Made by a program: the position numbers and the translations under genes
The notes under the pieces: generated by a model
What the model saw: the letters and a program-made list of their open reading frames with translations, nothing else
What the model was told of the DNA's origin: nothing
Databases searched by the model: none
Shown here: positions 1-34,009 of the stretch, in pieces
Layout of the letters: each line of letters opens with the position of its first letter
Position numbering within the stretch: the first letter of the stretch is position 1
DNA from: a bacterium
GTDB taxonomy: Bacteria; Myxococcota_A; UBA796; GCA-2862545
Reading direction: 5' to 3'
Length of the DNA: 35,613 nucleotides
NCBI GenBank assembly: GCA_030424555.1
Contig: JAUHWK010000001.1
Span: 1-35,613, forward strand

Positions 1-631
1 CGCCGATCTTCTCGAGGAACGCGTCGACCGCCGCGAGCTCCAGCTTCACGCGAGCGAGCTGCGAGGCGCGCGACGACGAGAACTGCGCGCGCTCCTCGAG
101 GCCGCGGGCGCGGCTGAGCAGCCTGCTACGGATCTTCCGGATGGCCCAGCCCTCGGGCGGCGGGAGCTGTGGCTGGATGGAGTCGAGCCACCGCACGTAG
201 CCGACGACGTCGACTTCCACGTCGGCGGTGCCGGGCTTCGGCATGGCGAAGACCGGATGGTGGTGCCAGCCGCCCTTCACGCGCGTGCGGCGCAGGTAGC
301 TGGACGACGGCTCCAACAGGGTGAACCCGCGGTCGTACATGCGAGAGCGGAGCTGCCCAAGGACAGGCCGACCACCCGGACCACGGGTCACGCCCTCCAC
401 CCCAGATCGGATGTCGACCCGCATCAGCTCGGGCACCACGTGGGCCGCGCCGTTCTGGTCCACCATCACCGTGTACCGATCGGCGCGGTACGCGTACAGG
501 AACGGCGGGGTGGGCGTCACGGTGGGCAGGCGCTCCCGCGACGGACCCTCGGCCTCGAGGACCTCGACGGTCTCCGTGTGGGTGAGCCCAGGCGTCGGGG
601 CCGTGGGCGGTGGCGCGATCACGCGGGCCAT
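1..631 (-). CDS. Post-capsid virion protein, N-terminal part (runs off left edge)
   Basis: The minus strand is open from an ATG at 631 to base 1 with no stop, so the gene is cut by the window edge. A GGAG box lies 5 nt before the ATG. The 210 visible residues begin MARVIAPPPTAPTPG. They have a proline-rich N-terminus, a mixed middle part, and a charged helical stretch near residues 160-210. The gene follows the major capsid gene in the same direction, so a head decoration or head-completion role is likely from position. I do not recognise the family. Read across the edge into 35613, the frame continues without interruption into the right-edge partial gene, giving a 335-residue protein; this join is an inference. 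Confidence 0.8.
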   Translation of the reverse strand, partial: MARVIAPPPTAPTPGLTHTETVEVLEAEGPSRERLPTVTPTPPFLYAYRADRYTVMVDQNGAAHVVPELMRVDIRSGVEGVTRGPGGRPVLGQLRSRMYDRGFTLLEPSSSYLRRTRVKGGWHHHPVFAMPKPGTADVEVDVVGYVRWLDSIQPQLPPPEGWAIRKIRSRLLSRARGLEERAQFSSSRASQLARVKLELAAVDAFLEKIG

Positions 632-725: not shown

Positions 726-1652
726 TCAGGACGCGGAAACGCCGGAGACGAGCTTCACGCCGCGGGCGTCCTGGCCGATGCTCATGCCGAGGTACAGGTT
801 GAGGATGTACTCGGACAGCGCCTTGCGCCCGGAGCGGTCGAGCTCGAACGTGCCGTGCGGGATCTGCACCTGACGGGTCGGGTCGTCGATGGGCGGGACG
901 CCGTCCGCCCACACCAGGCCACCGGCGGCCACCAGCGCGCCGGCAAAGTCGGCGTCGGCGTTGATCTTGGTCACGCGGTTGGTGACGAAGATGTCGCTGC
1001 CGAACAGCTTGCCCTTGTACCCGGTGCCACGCCGCGCCACGAGCTCGGCGGTGGCGGGCTGCCACTGCACGGTGCCGCCGGAGTCGAGGGCCAGCTCGGC
1101 GCGGAGGTTGAACCACTGCTGAGGTGCCAGCAGCGCCAGGGTCTCCCCGTCGGCGTTGGCGACGTCCAGGTCCTTCTGCGCCTCGAGGAAGGCCTCGGCA
1201 CCGAGGACCTGGCCGGACGTTCCGACAGACCCGGTGAAGCCCGCCGCCGTCGAGGCCGCCAGCTTCACGAGCTCCTGCATCGCGGTTGCGAACGCGTCCT
1301 GAACGAAACGCTCAGGCGTGAGCACGTTGAGGTTGTCAGTCATCCGGGCCATGTCCGACGGCGCGTACGCCTTGCCCTTGCGGGCGACGGTCACGGTCAC
1401 CTTGTCGTCGGGGAGCTGGGTGAAGCCCATCTCCTCGATCTCGGTGAGGTCCTCGGTCATGTCGTTGGCGTCGATGCCGATGAACGGCAGCGTCTTGGTG
1501 AGGATGCCCTCGCCGTTGACGCGGCCGGCGTACCGCAGCGCCGGGTGCTGGGGCAGACTGGTGCGCTCCGCGAGGAAGCGCTCGTAGTCGCCCATGATGA
1601 TCTCGGAGGCACGCGAGTCGGTCAGGTTCGCGATCAGGGTCTCGTTGGCCAT
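726..1652 (-). CDS. Major capsid protein
   Basis: The 308-residue product starts MANETLIANLTDSRASEIIM, with GGAG 8 nt before the ATG. Its length, acidic N-terminal segment, lack of membrane segments and C-terminal region (TNRVTKINADADFAGALVAA and onward) fit HK97-fold coat proteins of the kind annotated as phage capsid protein in siphophages. Its place after portal and scaffold genes supports this strongly. No N-terminal delta domain or protease cleavage site is evident, and a separate scaffold gene precedes it, so capsid maturation may not involve a prohead protease. The family is assigned from context and general appearance, not a diagnostic motif. Confidence 0.8.
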   Translation of the reverse strand: MANETLIANLTDSRASEIIMGDYERFLAERTSLPQHPALRYAGRVNGEGILTKTLPFIGIDANDMTEDLTEIEEMGFTQLPDDKVTVTVARKGKAYAPSDMARMTDNLNVLTPERFVQDAFATAMQELVKLAASTAAGFTGSVGTSGQVLGAEAFLEAQKDLDVANADGETLALLAPQQWFNLRAELALDSGGTVQWQPATAELVARRGTGYKGKLFGSDIFVTNRVTKINADADFAGALVAAGGLVWADGVPPIDDPTRQVQIPHGTFELDRSGRKALSEYILNLYLGMSIGQDARGVKLVSGVSAS

Positions 1653-3918: not shown

Positions 3919-5388
3919 TCAGCGGACGTGGACCGCGGCGATCCGGGGCCGTGGCCCACCCAGCATGATGGTGTCCTTCAGGGCGTAGCGGAGCGCGTCG
4001 ATGTAGTGCTTGAACTCGCTGTCGCGCTTGCCGTCGTACTTCTCGAAGCACTCGATGAGGTGCACGCACCTGGGGTGGACGAAGAACCGACCGCGCACCA
4101 TCTGCTGGTGGAGCCACCGCTCACCAATGGAGACCGACCCACGACCCGCGCCACGGCCCATCTTCGCGGTCCAGATGCCGGGCTTGAGCTCCTTGCGGTT
4201 CCGAACACCCAGGGCGCGGGCGACCTCGTCGCCGAGATCTCGGTTGCCCTTGCGGGCCACGCCACGCCCGGCGGGGATGTCACCGAACACTCGTTCCAGC
4301 TCGGACCACTCGAGCTGCCACCGCTGGAGCATGCCGAGCACGGAGGCCGCGTCCTGCTCGGACGTCGTGGGTCCGGTGGGGGGCGTCTCGTCGATGACGT
4401 ACACGAACGGGAAGCGGTCGCCCGCCCGGTCGTCGACGAGGACCAGGACGCCCGCCTGGTTGCGGTCGGCCGTGCCGTGGTCGACACCGACGTAGGCCTT
4501 GACCTCCCCCTTCGGTACGCGCTCGGTGACGTGGGTGCCCTCGACGTTCTCCACGGAGATGAACGCCGAGAAGATCCGCCCCTCGACGCGCGTCTCCCAT
4601 TCCCCGTCGTTGACGATGGGGCGTTCGTGGGCGGGCGTCAGGGTGTTCTCTCGCTCGACCCACTCCGCGTCGCAGATCGTGCCATCCTCGAGTCGGATGC
4701 GTCGACGGGTGCCGACGAACACCATGTGCCGGGCATCGAACGTGTAGTGGATGTCCTCGATCTCGCCGGACTCGCACCGCTCGCGTAGCCAGTCGGTGGG
4801 CCGGTTGATCGGCGTCAGCGTGAGCAGGATCGTGCCGCCCGTCCGCTGAACGCGCTTGGCGACCTCGTTGAAGATGCGCTCGCTGTACGGGGGCTCGTCG
4901 AACAGAGCCCCGTCGATGGTGGCGCCGGCGAGGTCGAGGGCGTCCTGCTGGGTCGTCTTGATCCGGATGATGGACCCGTTCGCGAACCGCAGGGCGGGAT
5001 GGTGCCCGCCGAACCCCTTCACCGGATCGTACCGCTGGTCAGGGTGGACGGCGTCCTTCGGCACCAGGTCCCAGAGCTTGGCCTGGATGTTCACCGACTG
5101 TTTGTGTGACGCGCACAGGAGCCACCACTCCACCGGCGGCGGGGGCACGTTCTTGAACGGGTGCTTCCCCAGGCAGTGGTAGATGACCTCGGCGCAGCCG
5201 ACGGTCGTCTTGCCGCCCCACTGGTTTCCCAGGCGGAGCAGTCGCCGGCGCGACGAGCTCGACATGAACTCGTGCTGGGGCGGCAGCCATCGCATGTAGG
5301 CGAGCCGATTGCGGTCCGCGGCCTGGGCCAGCCGGACGGCTGCCCGTGCACCACGGCCGAGGCGTCGTGAGGGTGGGGTCCTCGCCAC
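3919..5388 (-). CDS. terL: Terminase large subunit
   Basis: The 489-residue product has both halves of a DNA-packaging motor. The ATPase has a Walker A variant GNQWGGKTT (residues 54-62), Walker B ALFDEPP with D164-E165, and a coupling motif ILLTLTP around 187-193. The nuclease has the first acidic residue in YVGVDHGT (D303) and a late acidic residue in HYIDALRY (D464). It cuts concatemers and drives DNA through the portal. The start is a GTG at 5388, three bases after the small-terminase stop, so translation is probably coupled. An internal ATG near residue 32 is a less likely alternative because sequence before it is already well charged and in frame. Confidence 0.95.
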   Translation of the reverse strand: MARTPPSRRLGRGARAAVRLAQAADRNRLAYMRWLPPQHEFMSSSSRRRLLRLGNQWGGKTTVGCAEVIYHCLGKHPFKNVPPPPVEWWLLCASHKQSVNIQAKLWDLVPKDAVHPDQRYDPVKGFGGHHPALRFANGSIIRIKTTQQDALDLAGATIDGALFDEPPYSERIFNEVAKRVQRTGGTILLTLTPINRPTDWLRERCESGEIEDIHYTFDARHMVFVGTRRRIRLEDGTICDAEWVERENTLTPAHERPIVNDGEWETRVEGRIFSAFISVENVEGTHVTERVPKGEVKAYVGVDHGTADRNQAGVLVLVDDRAGDRFPFVYVIDETPPTGPTTSEQDAASVLGMLQRWQLEWSELERVFGDIPAGRGVARKGNRDLGDEVARALGVRNRKELKPGIWTAKMGRGAGRGSVSIGERWLHQQMVRGRFFVHPRCVHLIECFEKYDGKRDSEFKHYIDALRYALKDTIMLGGPRPRIAAVHVR

Positions 5389-8095: not shown

Positions 8096-8728
8096 TCAGC
8101 AGTACCACCGCGAGAACTTGATCTCGCGGGACGCCAGCGCCTCACGGCAAGCCGCGGCTGGCTCCTCACACCGACCCTCGGCGATGGCCTCAACCAGCGC
8201 CCACAGCATCGCGTCCTCGCCTGCGTGGGCGCCCTCGCTTTCGCCGGCCTCCGCACGGACCCCGTCGACCATGCGGGCGACATCGGCAGGGGTCACGAAG
8301 TCGGGCATCCCCGCGTCGTGCCATGCGGCATGTACGTAGCGGTAGCCGCCTGGGACGTTGTGTCCGCACACCATGCAGGTGCGCCCCTGGTCGGTGTCGT
8401 CGGGGGCGAACTTGGTGGGGTGCGGAGGGCGTGGCACGCCCGCGTGGGCCTCCAACCCTCCGGAATTCCCGGAGAGTTCGGACGGTCGGGGCCGGGCTGC
8501 GGTCCGCAGCTCCTGCTCAGCCAGGGCCTCGACGATGCGCCCGACCTCGGCCTCGGCGGCGGCCCGTCCAGCGTCACCGACCTCTGGCCCGGACGCGGCG
8601 ATATGCCCACGACGACGGATCCGCCATCCGGTGCCGTTCGGTTGTGCTGCGTCCCATACGAACGCGACGATCGTGCCGCCGATGGACGATTCTCCCACCC
8701 AGCCCGTGCTGTCCCTCGCCCACTGCAT
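8096..8728 (-). CDS. Hypothetical protein with central zinc-binding motif
   Basis: The product is about 210 residues. Its ATG overlaps the stop of the upstream gene in the sequence GAGGAGGGATGATG, with the ribosome binding site directly ahead. The N-terminal part reads like a small beta domain (WVGESSIGGTIVAFVWD). The middle has CMVCGHNVPGGYRYVHAAWH, a CxxC followed by histidines that could bind zinc. The C-terminal third is helical and acidic. I do not recognise the family. It is the last of three leftward genes beyond the candidate attP, so it may be expressed separately from the rest of the early operon once the prophage is integrated. Confidence 0.68.
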   Translation of the reverse strand: MQWARDSTGWVGESSIGGTIVAFVWDAAQPNGTGWRIRRRGHIAASGPEVGDAGRAAAEAEVGRIVEALAEQELRTAARPRPSELSGNSGGLEAHAGVPRPPHPTKFAPDDTDQGRTCMVCGHNVPGGYRYVHAAWHDAGMPDFVTPADVARMVDGVRAEAGESEGAHAGEDAMLWALVEAIAEGRCEEPAAACREALASREIKFSRWYC

Positions 8729-11197: not shown

Positions 11198-11400
11198 CGC
11201 GCCACGCCCTCCGCGAGACGCTCGACGGTCGCCGTGCCGGCCCAGCGGAGCCAGGACGGCCACGATGACGACCGACCCCGACCGCGGTCGTCGTGCCAGC
11301 GGACCCGCAGGGCGTCCACGGCATCGACCCACCGGCGGCCACCTCGGCGGCCTCGCAGGCAGTCGCCCGGCATGGGGGAGGTGGCGGGATCGCGTGTCAT
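11194..11400 (-). CDS. Small arginine-rich hypothetical protein
   Basis: The 68-residue product starts MTRDPATSPMPGDCLRGRRG and is rich in arginine and tryptophan. Both ends overlap neighbours by ATGA, which is the main evidence that it is translated. Function unknown; a nucleic-acid-binding role would suit its charge but is not shown. Confidence 0.55.
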   Translation of the reverse strand: MTRDPATSPMPGDCLRGRRGGRRWVDAVDALRVRWHDDRGRGRSSSWPSWLRWAGTATVERLAEGVAR

Positions 11401-12839
11401 GCCGGATCCACGGTGAAGGAGGGCAGGTTCGCCCGCACGATGGCAGCGGCGACCTGGGGGCAGACGCTGTTCCCGATGCGGGCCACCTGGTCGCGCTTCG
11501 TGCCGATCAGCACGTAGTCGTCGTCGAAGCCCTGGCACCGGGCGAGCTCGCGGGGCTGGAGCATCCGCATCCCGATGTCGGTGACGACGTGGGGCTCGCC
11601 CTCGATGTCGACGGTGACCAGGCCAAACCGGTCGACGCTGGTGATCGTGTCGAGGGGCCGGTCCGCTCGCTGGCCGATGCCGCTGCCGTAGTACTTGATC
11701 AGGAACGCCGCGACGTCCCTACGGTGGTCGAGTGGCAGCTCCACCTGCCGGTTCGCGGGCTTCACCTCGGCCTCGCACACGCTGTGGTGGTCGGTGGCGG
11801 TGATGGTCCCGAGGGGTCGCTCCATGCCATGCCCGACCACACCGGTGTAGTGCTTTGCGATCCAGGCCGACACGAGTGCGCCCTGCGACCCCTTGGCCGT
11901 CACGGTCCAGTACGGTCGCTCCACGGACCGTGTCCGGGGCTTCTGGCCCTTCCGCTCACCGTTGCGCGTGTTCGACAGGTACGGGGCCACAAGGGCGTGG
12001 TGGGTGCCCTGTGCCGAGATCGTGCCGAGCGGCCGCGACACGCCGTGGGTCGACTTGTGCGACGGCGAGGTGCCTCGGAGCGGCGCGATGTACGGCTCTG
12101 GATTGTCGAGCACGTACCGAACCAAGCCGTGGGCGATCCGGCGACAGGTGGCCTTGGCAAGCGGGCGCGGACGGTCGAAGATCGAAGGGCACGGGGTGCT
12201 CCAGTCGATGCACTCGGCGGCGGTCCGGTACGGGAGCGGACGGCCGGGTCCGTGCGATGGCGTGGGCCAGACCGGGTCCCCGTCACGGCGGGCGATCAAG
12301 AACAGCCGCTCGCGGGTGGTCGGGCTGCCGAAGTCGGCCGCGACCAGCTTCCGCCACGACACCCGGTAGCCGAGCCCTTCCAGCTCGCCGACGAACCTCC
12401 GGAATGTCTCGCCCTTGCGCTTGGGGTCGGGCCGGTTGTCGGGGCCGAGCGGCCCCCAGGTCACGAACTCGGGCACGTTCTCCATTGCGATCACGCGGGG
12501 GCTCACTTCCCGGGCCCACCTCACCACCATCCAGGCGAGACCCCTGATCTTCTTCGATACCGGCTTGCCGCCCTTGGCCCGAGAGAAGTGCGTGCAGTCC
12601 GGGCTGGCCCACAAGAGGTCAGGGCGCCGCGATCGGCACGCATCGCGCGGGGACACGCGGGCGATGTCCTCCTGGTAGTGGTGGGTGCTCGGGTGGTTCC
12701 GTTCGTGCATCCGGATCGCGTGTTCGCAATGATTGACGGCGATGTCCGGGTGCAGACCGGTCGCCCGGCGGATGCCCTCAGACGCACCTCCGCCGCCCGC
12801 GAACAGGTCGACGAGGAAGGGGTCGCGACGACTGTTCAC
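11397..12839 (-). CDS. DNA (cytosine-5-)-methyltransferase
   Basis: The 480-residue product starts at a GTG (12839) overlapping the upstream stop. Motif I FLVDLFAGGGG (residues 8-17) binds S-adenosylmethionine. Motif IV is ASPDCTHFS with catalytic C82, an SPDC variant of the usual PPC. Motif VI is MENVPEF (E120). Motif VIII is around TTRERLFLIAR. A late GNSVCPQVAAAIVRAN is motif X. The long variable region (about 210-400) carries repeated SRPLGTISAQGTHHAL / ERPYWTVTAKGSQGAL / ERPLGTITATDHHSV / DRPLDTITSVDRFGL units, four related stretches within the target-recognition part. No restriction enzyme partner is seen, so it is probably an orphan enzyme protecting phage DNA or acting in regulation. 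Confidence 0.93.
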   Translation of the reverse strand: MNSRRDPFLVDLFAGGGGASEGIRRATGLHPDIAVNHCEHAIRMHERNHPSTHHYQEDIARVSPRDACRSRRPDLLWASPDCTHFSRAKGGKPVSKKIRGLAWMVVRWAREVSPRVIAMENVPEFVTWGPLGPDNRPDPKRKGETFRRFVGELEGLGYRVSWRKLVAADFGSPTTRERLFLIARRDGDPVWPTPSHGPGRPLPYRTAAECIDWSTPCPSIFDRPRPLAKATCRRIAHGLVRYVLDNPEPYIAPLRGTSPSHKSTHGVSRPLGTISAQGTHHALVAPYLSNTRNGERKGQKPRTRSVERPYWTVTAKGSQGALVSAWIAKHYTGVVGHGMERPLGTITATDHHSVCEAEVKPANRQVELPLDHRRDVAAFLIKYYGSGIGQRADRPLDTITSVDRFGLVTVDIEGEPHVVTDIGMRMLQPRELARCQGFDDDYVLIGTKRDQVARIGNSVCPQVAAAIVRANLPSFTVDPA

Positions 12840-13147
12840 GACGCCTCCCGCCCCGCGACCACGTCGTCGGGAAAGACCCGGGTGGGCACGTCGCAGACGG
12901 TGCAGCTCGCGTAGCCCTCGGCCAGCAGCATGCAGAGCCCACCCTTGGCGGCCCCGCACCGCTCGCAGGCACCCGTCGCCAGGTCGGGGCGATCGCATGG
13001 ATCCGAAGGGTGCACGACGTGGACGGTGCCCGGGGGCGTGGTGCCCCGCTTGGCGCACCAGGTGCACGTCGTGCCCTCCAGCCTCCACCGGGACTCACCC
13101 GGCGGGGCGAACAGGTCGCCGCAGGCGTGGTCGAGCAGGCGGCTCAC
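12836..13147 (-). CDS. Zinc-ribbon protein
   Basis: The product is 103 residues from GTG 13147, overlapping stops at both ends (GTGA). It holds several cysteine pairs: CTWC near residue 28, then CERC, a lone cysteine and CTVC within about 30 residues, enough for two zinc sites. It sits directly upstream of the methyltransferase and is translationally coupled to it. Possible roles include DNA or RNA binding or assisting the methyltransferase; none is shown. Confidence 0.68.
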   Translation of the reverse strand: MSRLLDHACGDLFAPPGESRWRLEGTTCTWCAKRGTTPPGTVHVVHPSDPCDRPDLATGACERCGAAKGGLCMLLAEGYASCTVCDVPTRVFPDDVVAGREAS

Positions 13148-18526: not shown

Positions 18527-18865
18527 TCAACCCCCCAGCTTGGCCAGTCTCTTCGCGATGCCCAGCACGTCGGCCGCGGCGTCGTCGCTCAACCCACCTA
18601 CCACCTCGGCGAACTCCGCCAGGGCGTGAGCCTGCGCTTCCGTCAGGTCGACCTCTCCATCTGGACGTGGGTCGCGCGCCACGATGTCGATCTCGACGCC
18701 GAGCGCTCGACCCCACCGGACGAGGTCCGGGTAGGACGGATCCCGCTGACCTCGCTCCCAGCGCGAAATGGTCATCGACACCACGCCCAGCTCCGCACCG
18801 AGCTGGCGCGTCGTGAGACCCAGCTCCTCCCTCGCCTGCCTGAGGTGATCGCGGATGCGTTCCAT
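18527..18865 (-). CDS. CI-like repressor
   Basis: The 112-residue product has an N-terminal HTH_3 domain (residues about 4-58: LRQAREELGLTTRQLGAELG, then VSMTISRWERGQRDPS) and a short helical C-terminal part (LTEAQAHALAEFAEVVGGLS). There is no S24/LexA-type Ser-Lys protease domain, so RecA-stimulated self-cleavage is not expected and induction must occur another way, such as an antirepressor. It is divergent from the Cro-like gene with three operators between. No Shine-Dalgarno box precedes the ATG, and a -10-like GATACT ends 8 bases before it, suggesting a leaderless or nearly leaderless message, as for lambda cI. Confidence 0.82.
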   Translation of the reverse strand: MERIRDHLRQAREELGLTTRQLGAELGVVSMTISRWERGQRDPSYPDLVRWGRALGVEIDIVARDPRPDGEVDLTEAQAHALAEFAEVVGGLSDDAAADVLGIAKRLAKLGG

Positions 18866-18873
18866 CGGGCGCA

Positions 18874-18902
18874 AGTATCTTGGTGCATCCGCATTGGATT
18901 TG
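18874..18902 (-). promoter_or_regulatory. Candidate repressor-maintenance promoter
   Basis: On the minus strand GATACT (18879-18874) matches four of six positions of the -10 consensus and lies 8 bases from the repressor ATG. The -35 at the proper distance (CAAATC, 18902-18897) is very poor, as in promoters that need activation, and it overlaps operator OR1. Transcription would start at or one to two bases before the ATG. Confidence 0.4.
18884..18902. promoter_or_regulatory. Operator OR1-like
   Basis: Sequence TGCATCC-GCATT-GGATTTG. The left arm matches the consensus fully and the right arm keeps GGAT. It overlaps the -35 of the rightward promoter and the next operator by two bases. Confidence 0.68.
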
Positions 18903-18928
18903 CAGCCGATTTGGCTGCGCGGTAGCGT
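18900..18928 (+). promoter_or_regulatory. Rightward early promoter (PR-like)
   Basis: TTGCAG (18900-18905), a 17-bp spacer and TAGCGT (18923-18928) form a reasonable sigma-70-type promoter with an actinobacterial-style TAnnnT -10. All of it is interleaved with three operators, so repressor binding would block it. The Cro-like start at 18947 lies about 19 bases past the -10. Confidence 0.62.
18901..18919. promoter_or_regulatory. Operator OR2-like
   Basis: Sequence TGCAGCC-GATTT-GGCTGCG, a nearly perfect palindrome in which the central arm base pair differs from the other operators (AGCC/GGCT for ATCC/GGAT). Centre lies 17 bp from OR1. Confidence 0.68.
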
Positions 18929-18946
18929 GCATCCGTGGAGGATGCA
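18928..18946. promoter_or_regulatory. Operator OR3-like, covering the Cro-like ribosome binding site
   Basis: Sequence TGCATCC-GTGGA-GGATGCA is a perfect 7-bp-arm palindrome. It starts at the last base of the -10 and contains GGAGG (18937-18942), the ribosome binding site of the Cro-like gene, whose GTG begins one base after it. Confidence 0.8.
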
Positions 18947-19189
18947 GTGTCTACCCGAATCGGCCAGTTGCTTCGAAAGCTCAGGGGTGATCGCTCCCCC
19001 AGCGACATCGCCGACGAACTCGGTGTCCACCGGAACAGCGTGACTCGATGGGAGTCGGGCACTCGAGTTCCTTCGTTCGATACCCTCCGAAGCCTCCTCG
19101 ACCTGCTGGGCGCGTCGGACGACGAGCGGCTCGAACTGCTGAAGCCCGCCGGCATCGCCGATCACGACGGCACCGAGGAGGCGGCATGA
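18947..19189 (+). CDS. Cro-like regulator
   Basis: The product is 80 residues from the GTG at 18947, chosen for GGAGG upstream; an in-frame GTG at 18935 lies inside the operator and has no ribosome binding site. An HTH_3 domain (IGQLLRKLRGDRSPSDIADE then LGVHRNSVTRWESGTRVPS) fills most of the protein, with a helical tail. It is the first rightward early gene, opposite the repressor and under the operator cluster, as lambda cro. Its own operator overlaps its translation start, so it can autoregulate. Confidence 0.8.
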   Translation: MSTRIGQLLRKLRGDRSPSDIADELGVHRNSVTRWESGTRVPSFDTLRSLLDLLGASDDERLELLKPAGIADHDGTEEAA

Positions 19190-19749
19190 AGTACGGCATG
19201 AAAAGCGGCATGAGGTGCGACTGGATTCGGCGCATCGGCCACGCCAGCCGCTACGGTCCGAACTTGGTTCGCATCGGCACGTCCGACGGAGACGGGAACG
19301 TCGTTGCATGGTGCTTGGTGGTCGGCACGCCGGACCATCCACTGGCGGTCCGCGTCGCCGCTGCCCGGCGTGACGCGTTGTGGATGCGACCAGGTGGGAG
19401 CGCCGTCCCGGAACTCCCGGTCGACATCTTCGTCAAGCAGCCTGGCCAGCCTCTCCATGGGTTCGGCCAGCTGGTAGGCATCTCCTTCGACCCCACGGTC
19501 GCGACCCCGACGCGCGGAATCCTCGAGGCCGAGCCCGACGACCGCGAGGTCATTGGCGAACGCTGGGACGCCATCCAGCGTGGCGCGAGCTTCCTGCTCA
19601 AGGAGATCGTGCTGCCGGCGAGGCCGGCCCAGACCGCATCGTTCGAAGAGGTTGATCGCTGGGTCCACGATGCGGCCCTCGTCCGCGACCTCCAGGGGGC
19701 GATCGTCTACTCGGGCCGTGCGAGCAGCCTCTCCCAGAGGCCGTCGTGA
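19186..19749 (+). CDS. Hypothetical early protein
   Basis: The 187-residue product starts at an ATG overlapping the Cro-like stop (ATGA), after GAGGAGG. The first codons are a small repeat (MKYGMKSGMR) with three in-frame ATGs 12 nt apart, each preceded by GGC. The body is alpha/beta (DGNVVAWCLVVGTPDHPLAV). No family recognised. Its last 43 bases overlap the opposing gene at 19707-20126. Confidence 0.65.
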   Translation: MKYGMKSGMRCDWIRRIGHASRYGPNLVRIGTSDGDGNVVAWCLVVGTPDHPLAVRVAAARRDALWMRPGGSAVPELPVDIFVKQPGQPLHGFGQLVGISFDPTVATPTRGILEAEPDDREVIGERWDAIQRGASFLLKEIVLPARPAQTASFEEVDRWVHDAALVRDLQGAIVYSGRASSLSQRPS

Positions 19750-20474: not shown

Positions 20475-20954
20475 ATGATCCCCCTCCTCGCCAGCCTCCT
20501 CCGAGAGGCCACCCAACGTGCCGGCGTGCGTCGCTACGGACTGCACCGGGTCTTCTCGGACCTCGGCCTCACGCACTCCTCCGAGGGCGCCATCAGCAAC
20601 ATGCTCAACGTCGGCCGAGGCCTCTCGATCGAGCACGTCGGCGCCATGCTGGAGCTGCTCGAGGACGACGACCCCGGCCGCCTCCACGTCCTCGGCGAGG
20701 CGTGCGCCAAGCTCGGGGGCGGTGTGTACCTCCGCCCCCGCCGAGGCCTGCGTGACGTCGGGGTGGAGGTCGGCGAGGCTACCGCCCGGTGCGGCCTGGC
20801 GGTCGCCGCGTTCGCCGGCGCCATCGCCGACGGGAATGTCACCAGCGCCGAGCGCGACGAGGTCGCCACCCAGGCACGCCTCCTGGTCGAGGAGCTGCAG
20901 GACGTGATCGCCGCAGCGGAACGGGACGCACACCAGCACCCGTCAGTGGGGTGA
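20475..20954 (+). CDS. CII-like phage regulator
   Basis: The 159-residue product starts MIPLLASLLREATQRAGVRR, with GGAG upstream. It has an N-terminal helical DNA-binding-like part (GLHRVFSDLGLTHSSEGAIS, then LSIEHVGAMLELLEDDDPGR) and a helical C-terminal part (AERDEVATQARLLVEELQDV). This layout, with the fixed placement between Cro-like and replication genes, resembles the CII/CP76-type regulators of P2-like and Pseudomonas phages. It may help choose between lysis and lysogeny or regulate replication. The family call is tentative. Confidence 0.5.
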   Translation: MIPLLASLLREATQRAGVRRYGLHRVFSDLGLTHSSEGAISNMLNVGRGLSIEHVGAMLELLEDDDPGRLHVLGEACAKLGGGVYLRPRRGLRDVGVEVGEATARCGLAVAAFAGAIADGNVTSAERDEVATQARLLVEELQDVIAAAERDAHQHPSVG

Positions 20955-20958
20955 CCTG

Positions 20959-22494
20959 ATGGCCTCAGACCCAAAGACACACCTCGAGTGGGGGCTACGC
21001 GTCGCCGCAGCCAAGGGCATCACCGGCAGCGCTCGGGTGGTCCTGTGGGTGATGGCGCACCACGCGGGCGAGGACGGGATGGTGTGGTGCTCCAAGGCCA
21101 CCGTCGCCGCCGAGTCTGGCCTCGGAACCACCGCGGTGAAGTCCGCCTGGAAGTCCATGGAGGATGCCGGGTGGATCGAGCGAGACACGCGGGCGGGCGA
21201 CTCCGACCTGTTCCTCCTCGTGCCCGACGCGTGGCCCACTGTCCGGCCGAAGCGCAAGGCACAGGGGGGACGACGGACGCCCGGGGGTGGGTCGCCAGAC
21301 GACCGGGTCGCGAGACGACCGGGTCGCGAGACGACCGGGTCGCCAGACGACCGGGGGTGGGTCGCCAGACGCCCGGGGGTGGGTCGCCAGACGACCGGGG
21401 GTGGGTCGCCAGACGACCCCGAACCAACCATGAACCAGCCATTGAACCAACCATGGAACACACACAGCCATGGCGGCGCGCCCGATCTGCGTCCGACCAC
21501 CGGACCCCGGGCTGTGTGTGTGCCACCCACCGGCCTGTCTGATGAGCAGCTCCACCGCCTCGTCGACGGATGCCTGCGGGCGGTCGAGGGCGAGCGGCCA
21601 GCCACCCGGCGGGCCCATGCGGTCGACGTCGTCAGGGCCCTGTGGGCCGACCGAGGTCCGGACGAGCTCGACGCGTTCCTCGAGGACGTCGACCTGGTCG
21701 CACGAGCGTGCCGGGAGTGCCCCGACCGGACCTTCGCCCGGCTGGTGCGTGGTGAGGGCTGGGCGGAGAAGGCGAACAACAGCCGGCGGCTGAGCACCGT
21801 GCTGGACCCACGGGCCTGGGGCGCCCGCTTGCTCGTGGCCCGGGAGTGGTCACCGGCCGCCGAAGCGGCACCAGACCCCGGAGACCACGTGGCGGCGGAG
21901 CTCGCCAGGATGCAAGCGCGGGGCGTGGCGGTCCGTCCGCTGGGTGGCGTGTCCGGGCCCATGCTCGACGACGATCCGGTCGTCCACGAGCGCCTCCTCT
22001 TCCGGGCGACGTTCGCCGGCGGCGGGGACTGGTCGGCCTGGGCGCGTCGCGTGGCCAGTGGACAGGTGGGGCCCTCGTTGCCGACGCTGCCCGCAGAGGA
22101 CCCCGTGGAGTTCGCGCTCGCCGAGCGGTGGATCGAGGCCCCGTCGAGGGTGCTGGAGGCGGAAGCCCGGGCGCTGCTCGGCCGTCTGTCCCCCGGTGGC
22201 GTGCCCTACGCGCCTGGTGCGCCGTGGGACGGCGATGGCGTGGCGCTGCACGATGAGCAGGCCGAGCACGATCGCCGGTGGCTGGTCGTCCAGGTGATCG
22301 GCGGAGCGGACGAGGTCCGTCGGCGATGGAGGCCGCACGCTCACGAGCTGCTCGCCGTCACCATCCGGCACGCCCACGAGCACCTCGCCGAGCTCGGCGA
22401 CCGACACGGCGTCGACTGGCGCGCAGACCCGGCCGGCCTCGCGGCTTGCGAAGGCTGGACCCCAGAACCCCAACTCAAGGTGGTGAGCGGATGA
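20959..22494 (+). CDS. Replication initiator (lambda O / helix_turn_helix_36 type)
   Basis: The product is 511 residues. Residues about 8-95 form a winged helix (GITGSARVVLWVMAHHAGED, then CSKATVAAESGLGTTAVKSA and WIERDTR) like the N-terminal domain of lambda-O-type replisome organisers. Residues 105-180 are a low-complexity linker encoded by the iterons at 21291-21420 and by EPTMNQPLNQPWNTHSHGG. The C-terminal 330 residues are helical with many arginines and acidic patches and lack a Walker A motif, so no helicase is present. It would bind the iterons and recruit the host helicase. The position next to a RuvC-like gene supports a replication role. The start has a weak ribosome binding site (GGGGTGA). 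Confidence 0.75.
   Translation: MASDPKTHLEWGLRVAAAKGITGSARVVLWVMAHHAGEDGMVWCSKATVAAESGLGTTAVKSAWKSMEDAGWIERDTRAGDSDLFLLVPDAWPTVRPKRKAQGGRRTPGGGSPDDRVARRPGRETTGSPDDRGWVARRPGVGRQTTGGGSPDDPEPTMNQPLNQPWNTHSHGGAPDLRPTTGPRAVCVPPTGLSDEQLHRLVDGCLRAVEGERPATRRAHAVDVVRALWADRGPDELDAFLEDVDLVARACRECPDRTFARLVRGEGWAEKANNSRRLSTVLDPRAWGARLLVAREWSPAAEAAPDPGDHVAAELARMQARGVAVRPLGGVSGPMLDDDPVVHERLLFRATFAGGGDWSAWARRVASGQVGPSLPTLPAEDPVEFALAERWIEAPSRVLEAEARALLGRLSPGGVPYAPGAPWDGDGVALHDEQAEHDRRWLVVQVIGGADEVRRRWRPHAHELLAVTIRHAHEHLAELGDRHGVDWRADPAGLAACEGWTPEPQLKVVSG
21291..21420. repeat. Iteron array inside the initiator gene, probable replication origin
   Basis: Seven copies of GTCGCCAGACGACCGG (16 bp, one or two changes) lie at 21291, 21307, 21323, 21339, 21361, 21383 and 21405. 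The first four abut; the last three are each preceded by the spacer GGGTGG, giving 22-bp periodicity. A degenerate eighth copy may lie at 21269-21284. Each unit is itself palindromic (GGTCG-N5-CGACC). Unit lengths of 16 and 22 are not multiples of 3, so the protein frame rotates from copy to copy, which argues that the DNA, not the peptide, is conserved. Lambda ori has the same placement of iterons inside O. Confidence 0.75.
21421..21475. repeat. Lower-GC short repeats beside the iterons (candidate unwinding element)
   Basis: GAACCAACCAT (21421-21431), GAACCAGCCATT (21432-21443), GAACCAACCAT (21444-21454) and a partial GGAACACACACAGCCATGG follow the last iteron directly. The block is about half A+T against about 30% for the window. 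An A+T-richer repeat block adjoining iterons is what an origin needs for strand opening. Confidence 0.58.
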
Positions 22495-23078
22495 TCGTCC
22501 TCGGCGTGGACCCCAGCAAGGGTCGTCTCGGTTGGTGCGTGGCAAGGCACGGGAAGGTGCTGGACCTGGGCGACGCCGTGCCCAACGGCACGTGGGAGTG
22601 GAGCCGGTACCGCACGCTGGCGCACGAGCTCCACAGCATCGCACTCAAGCACGCGTCGATCTACCGGACCGACCTGTACCGGCTGGCGATCGAGCGGACG
22701 CCCATGCACCACGGCGGCGTCCGAGGGAAGGGCGACCCCCGGATCATCGTGCGGGCGGTGTCGGAGCTGGTCGGAGCCCTGACGGTGTCCATGACGCCAG
22801 CCGGCCCCTCCGGCCTCCTGACCTACCCCTGGGTGGTCGAGCCCAACGAGTGGCGCAGCTGGTACGGGATCCGGAGCGGTCGGCGCGGCAACCTCAAGGC
22901 CTGGGCCTGCCGCACGGCGGCCAGCCTCGCGCCCGAGCATCGCGCCAAGCTGATGAAGCACGACGACGTGGCCGAGGCCGTGCTCATCGCCGCGGGCGCG
23001 TCCATGCGTCCGATGGAGGGCCCGGCGGGTCCGTCGCGCCAGACGGCGTCGGTGATGCGCACCTGGGATGGCGGCTGA
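22491..23078 (+). CDS. RuvC-like Holliday junction resolvase
   Basis: The 195-residue product starts at an ATG overlapping the initiator stop (ATGA). MIVLGVDPSKGRLGWCV gives the first RuvC aspartate (D7). LAIERTP holds the second acidic residue (E68), and KHDDVAEAVLIAAGA (H157-D158-D159, E162) supplies the C-terminal acidic cluster. Length fits bacterial RuvC and phage RuvC-like resolvases (about 170-200 residues). It would cut branched DNA from recombination or replication before packaging. It is the last rightward early gene and ends 21 bp from the opposing late transcript. Confidence 0.88.
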   Translation: MIVLGVDPSKGRLGWCVARHGKVLDLGDAVPNGTWEWSRYRTLAHELHSIALKHASIYRTDLYRLAIERTPMHHGGVRGKGDPRIIVRAVSELVGALTVSMTPAGPSGLLTYPWVVEPNEWRSWYGIRSGRRGNLKAWACRTAASLAPEHRAKLMKHDDVAEAVLIAAGASMRPMEGPAGPSRQTASVMRTWDGG

Positions 23079-29007: not shown

Positions 29008-31224
29008 TCATCGCCTCCGGTTGCGGTGGCCCGGCCGGCCGCCGGCGCGTCGCAGCGCACGACGGGTGGACGGAGAAGGGCGCTCGAGGGCCATGGCGGT
29101 GGTCGCCTCGATCGTCTCGCTGCCGACCTGGGCCACCACCACGATGGGCCCGGAGCCCACGCCCCGGCCTCGGTTGAGCTCGTCGAGACCTTCCCGGCCG
29201 AGCTGGGCCATGCCCTCGGCGGAGACCACGCCCTCGCCACGACGAGCCGTGATCGACACTTCGTCGGGGGCCGTGCCCCCGCCACCGATGAGGCCGCCGA
29301 CGTGGAAGCTCGGTGGCTTCTGCGCTGCGATCAGCCCGACCTGCACGGCGGCCATGGCGCCGGTGAGCCCCGCCACCACGAAGGACGCCGGAGGGGGCAG
29401 GTTGCCCAGGGCCTGGGTGATGCTGAGCGCGGTGTTGATCGCGGCCTGGGCCAAGGCCGTCGCCTGCTGGATCCGGAACGCCGCCAGCATGGCCTTCTTC
29501 TGTTTCTCGGTCATCCGCTCCTGCGACGTGACGTTGGCACCCGACACCTGCAGGATGAGATCGGAGATCGCCCCGCCGAAGTCCACCGCGGCCTGGCCCA
29601 CCGCGGCAGCACCCTCGACGGCCTTCTGTCGCCGGTCCTGCTCCACCTGGGCGACGTGTTCACGGTACGCGTCGAGCTCCTGCTCGCGCTCGCCCTGCAG
29701 CAACGTCGCCGCGAGGCGCGCCTCTTCGTACTCACCGGAGACCAGACCCAGCTCCCGGATCCGCTGCAGGCGCTTGTCGTACCTCGCGTTGATCGCCTCC
29801 TCGCCCTCCAGCTGCGCCATCTGGAGGCTCTCGATCGTCGACTGCAACTCGACGTACGCATCGTAGGCATCTGCCACGGCGCTGAGGTCGCCGAGCATCT
29901 TTCCGAGGGTGTCAGCAGCGGGGGAGGAGGACTCGGACCCCGCGGCTGGGCCGGACGACCTGGTGGATCCCGGCGCTGAACCGCCGCTGAACGCGGCCTC
30001 TCTCGACGCGCCGTAGCTATCGAGAGCCTCCTTTGCCTTCCTGATCTCGTCAGCGATCTTGGAGGTGTCGATGCTGGCAAGCTCCTCGAACGCGCCGGAT
30101 GCTTCCCATCCACCTTCTGCCAACGCCAGCGCCGCGCCGCCCACGTCGCCGGCCGCCAGCTTCGCCATGGCCACCACGATGTCGTCACCAGCGTTGGCCA
30201 TCTCCCGAAACGCTGCGACGACGGGCGGACCCACGATCTCGACGGTCTTCGCCAGCGCGATCACCTCCATGGAGATCGCCTCCACCGCGCCAGCGAATCC
30301 ATCCCCGTGGCCTGCAGCGGTGAGCAGCGCGTCACCGAGCTTGGAAGTCGCGACGGTGAGCTGCGATTGCGCCGCCTCCCACCTGGCCGCAGCCTCGGCG
30401 GCCGCCGGTCCCACATTGAGGCCGAGCTCGCGCACCAGGGCGACGTGCTCCGACAGACGACGATCGCCAAGCACGGTCATCAGCTTCTGGCCGTCGTCGC
30501 TCATCAGCTGCTGGGCGTACGCGACCTGCTTGCCGCCGTCCTCCATCTGCTGGAGCTTCTCGATGGTCTCGACGAAGACGTCGTTCACGTCACGCAGCGT
30601 GCCGTCGCCACGGTCGACGGCAATGCCGAGGTCTCGGAACGCCTCCTCGGCCGCGCCGCCGCCGTTAGCGAAGTCGAACATCTTCTCGGCGAAGTCCCGA
30701 ACGGAGTCGGCCGCGTCCTTGAACTCGACGTCGGTCCCTTGCGTGGCGAGCTGCAGGGCAGCCATCGTCTCCGCTGCGATCTTGGTCTCGCGGGACGCCT
30801 TCAGGATCTCCACGCGGGCGTCGTAGGCATCGCCGGCGAGGTCGTACAGACCCGCCGCCAGCAGGCCGGTGGCGGCGGCCGCGGCCGTGACGGCGACCAC
30901 TGCACCGCCAATGACCGCCGTCATCCCCCCGGCACCCATGGCCAACGACACCTCATCGGACGCGTCGGCGACCTGGCCTAGGGCCGGGTGGATCTCGTCG
31001 AGCGCACCCCGCAGGCGGTTCTTCCAAGCGTTGGATGCCTGCTCGACTGCCTTGGTCTGCTCTCGAAGGACCTTGCGCTGGTCGTCCTCCTGTTGGCGCC
31101 ACGCTCGCCGGAACTCGGCGGTCATCTTCCGGGCTTCCTTCTTGGTCAGCCCGGGGATGCCCTCCAGCTCCTTCTTGAACTCGTTGAGCTTGGCGCGAAG
31201 CTCGATGTCGACAGCGCGGGCCAT
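29008..31224 (-). CDS. Tail tape measure protein
   Basis: The 738-residue product starts at an ATG overlapping the upstream stop (TGATG). It has a long helical N-terminus (KLNEFKKELEGIPGLTKKEA), a hydrophobic stretch (residues about 95-130: MTAVIGGAVVAVTAAAAATG), many Ala-rich helices, a low-complexity break (SGGSAPGSTRSSGPAAGSES) and a second hydrophobic region, then the common C-terminal pattern FHVGGLIGGGGTAPDEVSIT with ARRGEGVVSAEG. At about 0.15 nm per residue, a known relation for tape measures, it would set a tail near 110 nm. It lies after the chaperone and gp10-like genes and before the tail-tip gene, as in siphophages. Confidence 0.9.
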   Translation of the reverse strand: MARAVDIELRAKLNEFKKELEGIPGLTKKEARKMTAEFRRAWRQQEDDQRKVLREQTKAVEQASNAWKNRLRGALDEIHPALGQVADASDEVSLAMGAGGMTAVIGGAVVAVTAAAAATGLLAAGLYDLAGDAYDARVEILKASRETKIAAETMAALQLATQGTDVEFKDAADSVRDFAEKMFDFANGGGAAEEAFRDLGIAVDRGDGTLRDVNDVFVETIEKLQQMEDGGKQVAYAQQLMSDDGQKLMTVLGDRRLSEHVALVRELGLNVGPAAAEAAARWEAAQSQLTVATSKLGDALLTAAGHGDGFAGAVEAISMEVIALAKTVEIVGPPVVAAFREMANAGDDIVVAMAKLAAGDVGGAALALAEGGWEASGAFEELASIDTSKIADEIRKAKEALDSYGASREAAFSGGSAPGSTRSSGPAAGSESSSPAADTLGKMLGDLSAVADAYDAYVELQSTIESLQMAQLEGEEAINARYDKRLQRIRELGLVSGEYEEARLAATLLQGEREQELDAYREHVAQVEQDRRQKAVEGAAAVGQAAVDFGGAISDLILQVSGANVTSQERMTEKQKKAMLAAFRIQQATALAQAAINTALSITQALGNLPPPASFVVAGLTGAMAAVQVGLIAAQKPPSFHVGGLIGGGGTAPDEVSITARRGEGVVSAEGMAQLGREGLDELNRGRGVGSGPIVVVAQVGSETIEATTAMALERPSPSTRRALRRAGGRPGHRNRRR

Positions 31225-31610
31225 CAGGGCACGCGCCGCATTTCGTCGGTGACGACGTCGCCGAACCGCTCGGCCGCCTTGTCCGCGACCTCGAGCATCG
31301 GGTGGCGGATGAGGTTCTGGTACGCCGGCCCCGTGTGGCGGGAGCTGATGTAGTAGACGTAGCCCCCGGTGTTCCGGTTCCCGAGGTGGGCGTGCACAGC
31401 ATCCGGGCCGATCTCGACCGAGGAGTACAGGTCTCGCTTCGAGCGGCCCGACTTCACGGGCCACTCGTCCACGGCTTCGCGGAACACGCGGTCGGTCTCC
31501 TCCTCGAGCACCGAGAACACGCCACCGGTGGCGCGCTCGATCGCCTGTCGGACGAACCCGCTCAGGTCATCCGACAGCACCGCGTCCTGCCCGATGCGGA
31601 GCTCAGCCAC
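31224..31610 (-). CDS. HK97 gp10-like tail completion protein
   Basis: The product is 128 residues from GTG 31610, overlapping the preceding frame by 8 bases. The block WPVKSGRSKRDLYSSVEIG, then VHAHLGNRNTGGYVYYISSRHTG and a final helix (HPMLEVADKAAERFGDVVTD) fits the HK97 gp10-like family, which forms the head-tail joining or tail-terminator ring. It normally lies before the tail-tube genes; here it lies after the chaperone and before the tape measure, which is unusual. Position and length otherwise fit. Confidence 0.65.
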   Translation of the reverse strand: MAELRIGQDAVLSDDLSGFVRQAIERATGGVFSVLEEETDRVFREAVDEWPVKSGRSKRDLYSSVEIGPDAVHAHLGNRNTGGYVYYISSRHTGPAYQNLIRHPMLEVADKAAERFGDVVTDEMRRVP

Positions 31611-32755: not shown

Positions 32756-34009
32756 CTACGTGACGTCGAGCCCATCCTCGTCCCGCCGGAGGCGGCGCAG
32801 GACCACGCGGAACTTCACCGAGATGGGTGAACCTGGGTCCAGCACACGCGCCCGCACCACGGGGCGCGGCATGCCCGCTGCAGCTCGTGCGGTGCTGGCA
32901 ATCCGCCGAACGAGGGTCTCTTCAGCCAACGGCATTCGACTGACCGTCGCCGACATGCCCGTGCCGTCGATGACGTCCTCGTCGGTCCCCATCGGCCCCA
33001 CCACCTCGACGTGCCCCACCCGCGAGGCGTCGTTCTCCGGCGCGAAGTCGAACGTGGCCCGGGCGACGATGGACTCGTTCGCGGTCGATGCGCCAACCTC
33101 GGACGTCGTCGTCAGCGCACCGGCCGCCACCGTCCCGAGGCAGCGGCCGACGTAGGACTTGTTGAAGACGCCGTTGCCGGGTCGCCGACCCACCACCACG
33201 AAGGGCCAGTCGGTCTCCGTGCCGTCGTACCACCCCAGCGCGAGGAAGCCGATGAGGCTTGCCGACGGGCGGTCGATCTCGAGGTACGCCTCGCAGCGCC
33301 CCTCCTCGTCGAACACCCGCTGGATGTCGGGCAGCTCACCGAGGTCCCACGCGATGATGCCGTCGCCGGTGCCGCCCTCAAGGTCGAGCTGGAACGACCA
33401 CCCGGCCCCCGGGTCGGTCAGCGTGAGGGGCGCGGACGAACCGGAGGTCGTCAGCTCGGTGGCGTTGTCGAACCACTCGAACGGCGCGACGAGGAGCGGA
33501 ATGTCGGAGAGGACAGATCCATCGATGGAGATCTCCCCGTACACGACCCCGTTGGCCTGGACGGTGTCAGGGTCCCCCTCGGTGATGTCGAGGACCAGGT
33601 GTACGTTGCGCATGAGCAGGATGTGGTCGCGGCCGAGGGCGCCGGGGATCCGCAGCTCGACGTCGAACGTCGTCACGTCTCCGAAGTCGGACGAGGTGGA
33701 CACACGGGACGCGTACGGCGCGTTGCCGAACACCAGGTCGAGAAGCTCGCCAGGGGTGCCGCCGCCGGTGAACTGCGCGAACATCGCGGAGAACGACAGC
33801 GTTGGGTACAGCGGGGTCGTCTGCCGCAGCGACACCAGCGCCCCGCGGGCCTCATACGCGGCGTGGTTGCGCCGGTTTGGAGCCATGGACTGGATCGCGA
33901 AGTCTCCGCGGTCGAACCGGACCTGCACCTGCAGGGGCGTGCCCGACCCGTCGCTCACCGTGATGGTCGCCTGGTCGAACTGCGTCTTGACGTAGGGATC
34001 TTGGGCCAT
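32756..34009 (-). CDS. Tail tube-like protein with large C-terminal extension (long paralog)
   Basis: The product is 417 residues from ATG 34009, overlapping the preceding stop. Residues 1-170 repeat the tail-tube fold of the next gene. Residues about 180-417 are additional: a beta-rich segment (SAPLTLTDPGAGWSFQLDLE), LIGFLALGWYDGTETDWPFV in the middle, and a C-terminal basic domain (RPVVRARVLDPGSPISVKFR). The extension might be a surface decoration on the tube or a special ring at the tail end. It is separated from the short copy by the late-junction motif. Duplication followed by domain gain is the simplest explanation. Confidence 0.72.
   Translation of the reverse strand: MAQDPYVKTQFDQATITVSDGSGTPLQVQVRFDRGDFAIQSMAPNRRNHAAYEARGALVSLRQTTPLYPTLSFSAMFAQFTGGGTPGELLDLVFGNAPYASRVSTSSDFGDVTTFDVELRIPGALGRDHILLMRNVHLVLDITEGDPDTVQANGVVYGEISIDGSVLSDIPLLVAPFEWFDNATELTTSGSSAPLTLTDPGAGWSFQLDLEGGTGDGIIAWDLGELPDIQRVFDEEGRCEAYLEIDRPSASLIGFLALGWYDGTETDWPFVVVGRRPGNGVFNKSYVGRCLGTVAAGALTTTSEVGASTANESIVARATFDFAPENDASRVGHVEVVGPMGTDEDVIDGTGMSATVSRMPLAEETLVRRIASTARAAAGMPRPVVRARVLDPGSPISVKFRVVLRRLRRDEDGLDVT

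Follow-up and report, generated by a model that had tools for sequence, protein, structure and literature searches.

The phage genome and its initiator gene

The window, meaning the whole stretch of DNA that was analysed, is an entire 35.6-kb contig and is part of a 4.4-Mb genome bin. The capsid, portal and terminase genes lie at its left end, and the tape measure gene is found with other minus-strand genes at its right end. Since the gene order, an integrase and the CI-like and Cro-like regulators fit, the contig is consistent with the complete genome of a temperate siphophage, opened at an arbitrary point and presumably circular; no terminal overlap was found on it. Around the initiator gene the order is CI/Cro/CII/O/RuvC-like (Table 1). 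The gene after the initiator is weakly RuvC-like, and the remaining neighbours that were scanned gave no family match. The family profile search recognised no lambda P-like loader among these neighbouring genes; the loader role could be taken by the C-terminal domain of the initiator or by another gene.

Table 1. Genes and sequence elements in the window (aa, residues of the initiator)
Feature	Position	Strand	Basis or remark
Capsid	726-1652		Left end of contig; portal also there
Terminase	3919-5388		Left end of contig
C5-cytosine DNA methyltransferase	11397-13088	-
CI-like repressor (HTH_3)	18530-19342	-	Profile matches; divergent from Cro-like gene
Cro-like gene	18935-19189	+
CII-like transcription activator	20475-20954	+	phrog_101, 7e-11; directly upstream of initiator gene
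O-like replication initiator (P0001, 511 aa)	20959-22494	+	Pfam, PHROG, AlphaFold2, Foldseek
Winged helix	aa ~5-87
Linker encoded by putative origin DNA	aa ~104-170		C-terminal domain beyond
Degenerate eighth iteron GGGACGACGGACGCCC	21267-21282	+	12/16 identical; 22 bp before unit 1
Four abutting 16-bp palindromic iterons	21289-21352	+	Starts 21289, 21305, 21321, 21337
Three palindromic iterons, 22-bp spacing	21359-21418	+	Starts 21359, 21381, 21403; GGGGGT between
GAACC-(N)-RYCA direct repeats, spacing 11,12,12	21421-21467	+	Likely DNA-unwinding / single-strand element; conserved in relatives
Long inverted repeat, 16-nt arms, 15/16 pairs	21454-21525	+	TGGAACACACACAGCC / GGCTGTGTGTGTGCCA; directly downstream of GAACC block
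RuvC-like Holliday junction resolvase, weak match	22491-23078	+	PHROG, 0.001 and 0.01; overlaps initiator gene end
Tape measure	29008-31464	-	Right end of contig

The N-terminus of the initiator matched the Pfam family HTH_36 (1e-7), and its residues 16-108 matched PHROG 1032, 270 and 391 (replication initiation / O-like). Residues 1-104 were modelled with AlphaFold2 as a winged helix (44 related sequences, pLDDT 82.7). When this model was compared with viral structures by Foldseek, the matches included the replication protein O of phage Min27; the PDB fold matches were generic winged helices, the nearest being of the MarR and CodY types. These results bear out the preliminary description, which had placed a lambda-O-like winged helix at the N-terminus of the array-bearing gene. 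For the full-length initiator, no relatives were found by tblastn in phage and plasmid records or by a viral scan with its peptides, and no named phage gave a match.

Palindromic iterons and GAACC repeats within the initiator gene

About 330 bp into the gene and past the winged helix, codons 104-154 carry seven 16-bp units (21289-21418) and a degenerate eighth. Six are exact GGTCG-N5-CGACC palindromes, and the unit at 21359 has a single mismatch in its right arm (CGCCC). The 4 + 3 arrangement of seven units with 16- and 22-bp spacing that had been noted beforehand was confirmed, but one unit proved to be imperfect and the degenerate eighth had been missed. With the latter included, the full spacing is 22,16,16,16,22,22,22.

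Since 16 and 22 are both 1 modulo 3, every step shifts the reading frame by one, and successive units stand in the frames 0,1,2,0,1,2,0. This frame rotation yields the repeating peptides GSPDD, VARRP and GRQTT. The window has four occurrences of the paired palindrome, whereas 100 dinucleotide shuffles produced none. When synonymous codons were resampled with the peptide fixed, a mean of 0.28 units and a maximum of 3 were reached in 5000 trials, whereas 6 were observed; codon permutation with the same peptide gave at most 4. Synonymous shuffles never reached six units, and the earlier argument that frame-rotating unit lengths point to selection on DNA was upheld. The array is kept by selection on the DNA rather than on the peptide. 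Folding of the iteron strand gave nothing beyond the shuffles (z = -0.3). The iterons are rich in CpG and the phage carries a gene for a C5-cytosine DNA methyltransferase, so methylation could affect binding.

The iterons are followed at 21421-21470 by a lower-GC block with 50% A+T compared to 27% for the gene. It lies at the 99.9th percentile of the window and is the least stable 40-bp stretch of the initiator gene. The A+T-richer repeat block of the preliminary description was therefore recovered and is, more exactly, a GAACC-(N)-RYCA direct repeat with 11-13 bp spacing. The sequence from 21421 to 21467 is GAACCAACCAT GAACCAGCCATT GAACCAACCATG GAACAC, where GAACC starts at 21421, 21432 and 21444 (spacing 11 and 12) and GAAC at 21456. 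Judged by density, the window should contain 0.0015 occurrences of three GAACC so spaced. The inverted repeat downstream folds as single-stranded DNA far better than shuffles (z = -3.9) and may form a hairpin when single-stranded.

The bin also carries a second O-like gene, L007, on a 4.2-kb contig, where the gene beside it looks like that of a type I restriction subunit. L007 is the closest homologue of the initiator (37% identity) and possibly a remnant. It has no recognisable palindromes and keeps the GAACC block as GAACCTGTCTCA GAACCAGTCCAT GAACCTGAGATG GAACAC, a DNA design that matches that of the window. The first step is 11 bp in the window versus 12 bp in L007, and because of this the peptide EPxxEPxxEP becomes EPTMNQPLNQP. 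At the position of the inverted repeat, L007 shows only a short CACAC/GTGTG pair. In the distant homologue L008 (G047), the corresponding part of the gene (8422-8558) is occupied by an array of 11/22-bp direct repeats, which shows no clear palindrome or GAACC block and could be a different type of iteron. Relatives that lack the units and keep the peptide had been named beforehand as the case that would speak against the reading; L007 has neither, and the G047 homologue has repeats of its own.

The palindrome and its spacing in other phages

The palindrome was searched as two neighbouring GGTCG-N5-CGACC units in the DNA only, without protein information. The pair was found in 37 viral contigs, and in 27 of these the array lay inside a winged-helix O-like ORF, after the domain. 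The ORFs of the matched phages range from 25 to 63% A+T, and the rest of the protein differs greatly as well. Of 24 unique arrays, which comprise the viral and four genomic ones, 23 are followed by 50 bp with more A+T than the gene (p = 1e-5). The pair is not a repeat of the host lineage, since among 71 genomes from the host's class it occurs in no other than that of the window.

The genome collection gave at least 119 matches, mostly chance or unrelated tandem repeats in GC-rich genomes, and among those listed a handful were O-like, including Streptomyces and acidobacterial contigs. The O-like genes L103, L153, L121 and L144 have the same palindrome as the window, with spacings of 16-17 bp in L103, L121 and L144 and of 22-23 bp in L103 and L153. 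They can be aligned with the window initiator in the winged helix only and, unlike the window, show no obvious GAACC block directly 3' of the array. In the Streptomyces loci L088, L109, L113 and L158, the palindrome pair lies near an ORF start outside O-like genes, with a winged-helix match further downstream.

The O-like genes of named phages contain other 5+5+5 palindromes at the same gene position. Their arms are GTGCA in SfV and a Pseudomonas phage, GTGAC in Vibrio and Psychrobacter phages and TGGGG in a cyanophage. The centre-to-centre spacings below 30 bp were collected from 105 unique arrays with at least three units each, a sample dominated by GTGCA arrays from many near-identical phages: 21 cases fell at 16-18 bp, 320 at 20-24 bp and one each at 15, 25 and 27 bp. 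No 19-bp spacing occurred among the 105 arrays. The 16-18 bp class was seen with the arms GGTCG, GTGCA, GTGAC, CGGCA, CCGCA and CGGAA, among others. The change from 16 to 22 bp, which had been called unusual, is not so, because spacings of either class are found again in many arrays whose arms differ. The two classes fit the earlier idea of two binding modes, and the empty 19-bp class would be consistent with two rotational settings of about 1.5 and 2 helical turns.

GAACC repeats in other phages

The viral contigs were scanned completely for an 11-bp-spaced, frame-rotating GAACC pattern that cannot be a peptide repeat. O-like winged-helix genes contained 83 of the 119 loci, without exception on the sense strand and with each of the three frames represented (63 of 91 with duplicates removed), versus 0 of 29 loci for the reversed control pattern. 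The consensus of 236 units, partly fixed by the search pattern, is GAACC-R-T-C-A, and the phages bearing it span a GC content of 0.45-0.73. Where the peptide allows either codon, GAA to GAG was 21:0 in the O-like blocks compared to 56:58 elsewhere in the same genes (p = 3e-6), in a small sample of 7 blocks, two of them overlapping in one gene, taken from codon-neutral scan loci only and not selected for GAACC.

GAACC-type blocks with 11-12 bp spacing are present in the O-like genes of SfV, Psychrobacter phage Y8A, Vibrio phage D299, Pseudomonas phage BR141a and Arthrobacter phage Renna12. In the first four, the block is preceded by palindromic iterons with the arms GTGCA or GTGAC instead of GGTCG, and in Renna12 no iteron array was called. 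All five blocks use other reading frames than that of the window; the unit frames are 1,0,2,2 in Renna12, 2,1,0 in BR141a and 2,0,1,2 in a Bradyrhizobium phage. A prophage of the host's order bears 22-bp iterons of its own and, after them, 12-bp GAAGCGACCATT repeats.

Discussion

The anatomy of the locus, selection on its DNA and the recurrence of iterons and GAACC block in unrelated phages lead us to conclude that the element is very probably the vegetative replication origin of a temperate phage, located inside its own initiator gene as in lambda. The lambda-like intragenic origin of the preliminary description thus gained support from profile matches, from the fold, from gene order and from DNA patterns searched in unrelated phages. 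A minimum of the cumulative GC skew, which had been expected at the site, was not there: it was located at 49, or at 33410 after detrending, in a signal that is expected to be weak in phages and is confounded by gene strand. DnaA boxes (E. coli consensus TTATCCACA, at most one mismatch) were absent from the window. Further points speak against the origin reading: no P-like loader was recognised among the scanned neighbours, the closest homologue L007 lacks recognisable palindromes although it keeps the GAACC block, lambda has an A-rich tract in place of GAACC repeats, and the full-length initiator matches no named phage.

We infer that the iterons are bound, that the duplex opens, that a single strand is recognised and that the locus acts as an origin. 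In this model, the O-like protein would bind the GGTCG-N5-CGACC palindromes as dimers, by means of its N-terminal winged helix, to give a nucleoprotein complex, and the low-stability block beside the iterons would open next. The GAACC-(N)-RYCA repeats, which lie on the same strand about one helical turn apart, would be a sequence-specific single-strand or helicase-loading element. After opening, the GAACC strand could be read by the O-like protein or by a loader, in analogy to RK2. In lambda, O bound to the iterons forms the O-some, the tract beside them opens, and single-stranded DNA is bound by O as well (PMC7466680). The Rep proteins of RK2 and F bind one strand of the DUE, and in RK2 this binding needs all four 13-mers (PMC4081077).

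Could the palindromes instead be operators, by which the winged-helix protein or another regulator controls early transcription while replication starts elsewhere? Most winged-helix domains belong to transcription regulators, the PDB folds closest to this one are of the MarR and CodY types, and the Streptomyces loci L088, L109, L113 and L158 carry the pair near an ORF start, upstream of the winged helix. We consider this improbable, as the array lies inside the gene, past the winged helix and in the replication slot, and is coupled across unrelated phages to low-stability DNA, here the GAACC block, as in lambda. Still less credit can be given to the view that the repeats matter as protein, in the form of a flexible linker of low complexity that arose by tandem duplication, and have no role as DNA. 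The linker is rich in glycine and arginine, and EPxxEPxx linkers occur in other phages, but the iteron units rotate through three frames and are destroyed by synonymous shuffles, and the GAACC repeats appear in all frames with biased codons.

A less remote, though unlikely, explanation accepts the iterons and takes the GAACC block mainly as an opening or spacer sequence that is not read specifically. The block is the least stable DNA of the gene, lambda opens a plain A-rich tract, and L008 has no GAACC after its array. However, GAACC has a G+C content of 60%, and many phages show it with a fixed strand orientation and period, which plain A+T enrichment would not preserve. On balance, and by analogy, we lean slightly towards a sequence-specific reading of the block. 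With similarly guarded confidence, we propose that O-type origins are a two-part cassette, in which initiator-specific iterons are joined to a conserved, strand-oriented GAACC-(N)-RYCA element (11-13 bp spacing, in any frame and in phages of many bacterial groups) for recognition during opening or loading.

These findings extend the lambda-type intragenic origin, which is widespread, to a high-GC phage lineage. With the GAACC repeats, phage origins can be found from DNA alone, and the element makes the opening and loading step of O-type initiation testable beyond lambda. A DNA motif that is kept while the coding frame rotates is also a clean example of overlapping constraints.

Comparison with known systems

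The lambda origin in gene O (NC_001416; iterons 39034-39118) resembles the window in its O-like initiator and its intragenic 5+5+5 palindromes (CCCTC-AAAAC-GAGGG), and likewise has an easily opened tract beside the iterons and a CII gene upstream (PMC7466680). However, lambda has four iterons with other arms spaced 20, 24 and 23, whereas the window has seven and a degenerate one; its A-rich tract has no GAACC repeats; and the loader gene P comes next, whereas none was recognised beside the window initiator. The 13-mers in the DUE of RK2 oriV, which are bound by TrfA (PMC4081077), resemble the GAACC block in being a series of short direct repeats beside iterons, each with a length of about one helical turn; one strand of the 13-mers is recognised, as would be the case for the GAACC repeats. 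They belong to another initiator family and have another sequence (TAAACnTTnTTTT).

Intragenic O-type origins are a known class. Our search of the open literature turned up neither GAACC repeats at phage origins nor the two spacing classes, an absence that is not proof; a paper on the Pseudomonas phage MD8 mentions repeats within the O-like gene, with no detail (PMC8508860). The GAACC repeat and the spacing classes thus seem to be undescribed. Because a P-like partner was not recognised, the locus is not filed under the lambda O/P module. We class it as an O-like initiator with a probable intragenic origin, in a variant that has 16/22-bp spacing and a GAACC block.
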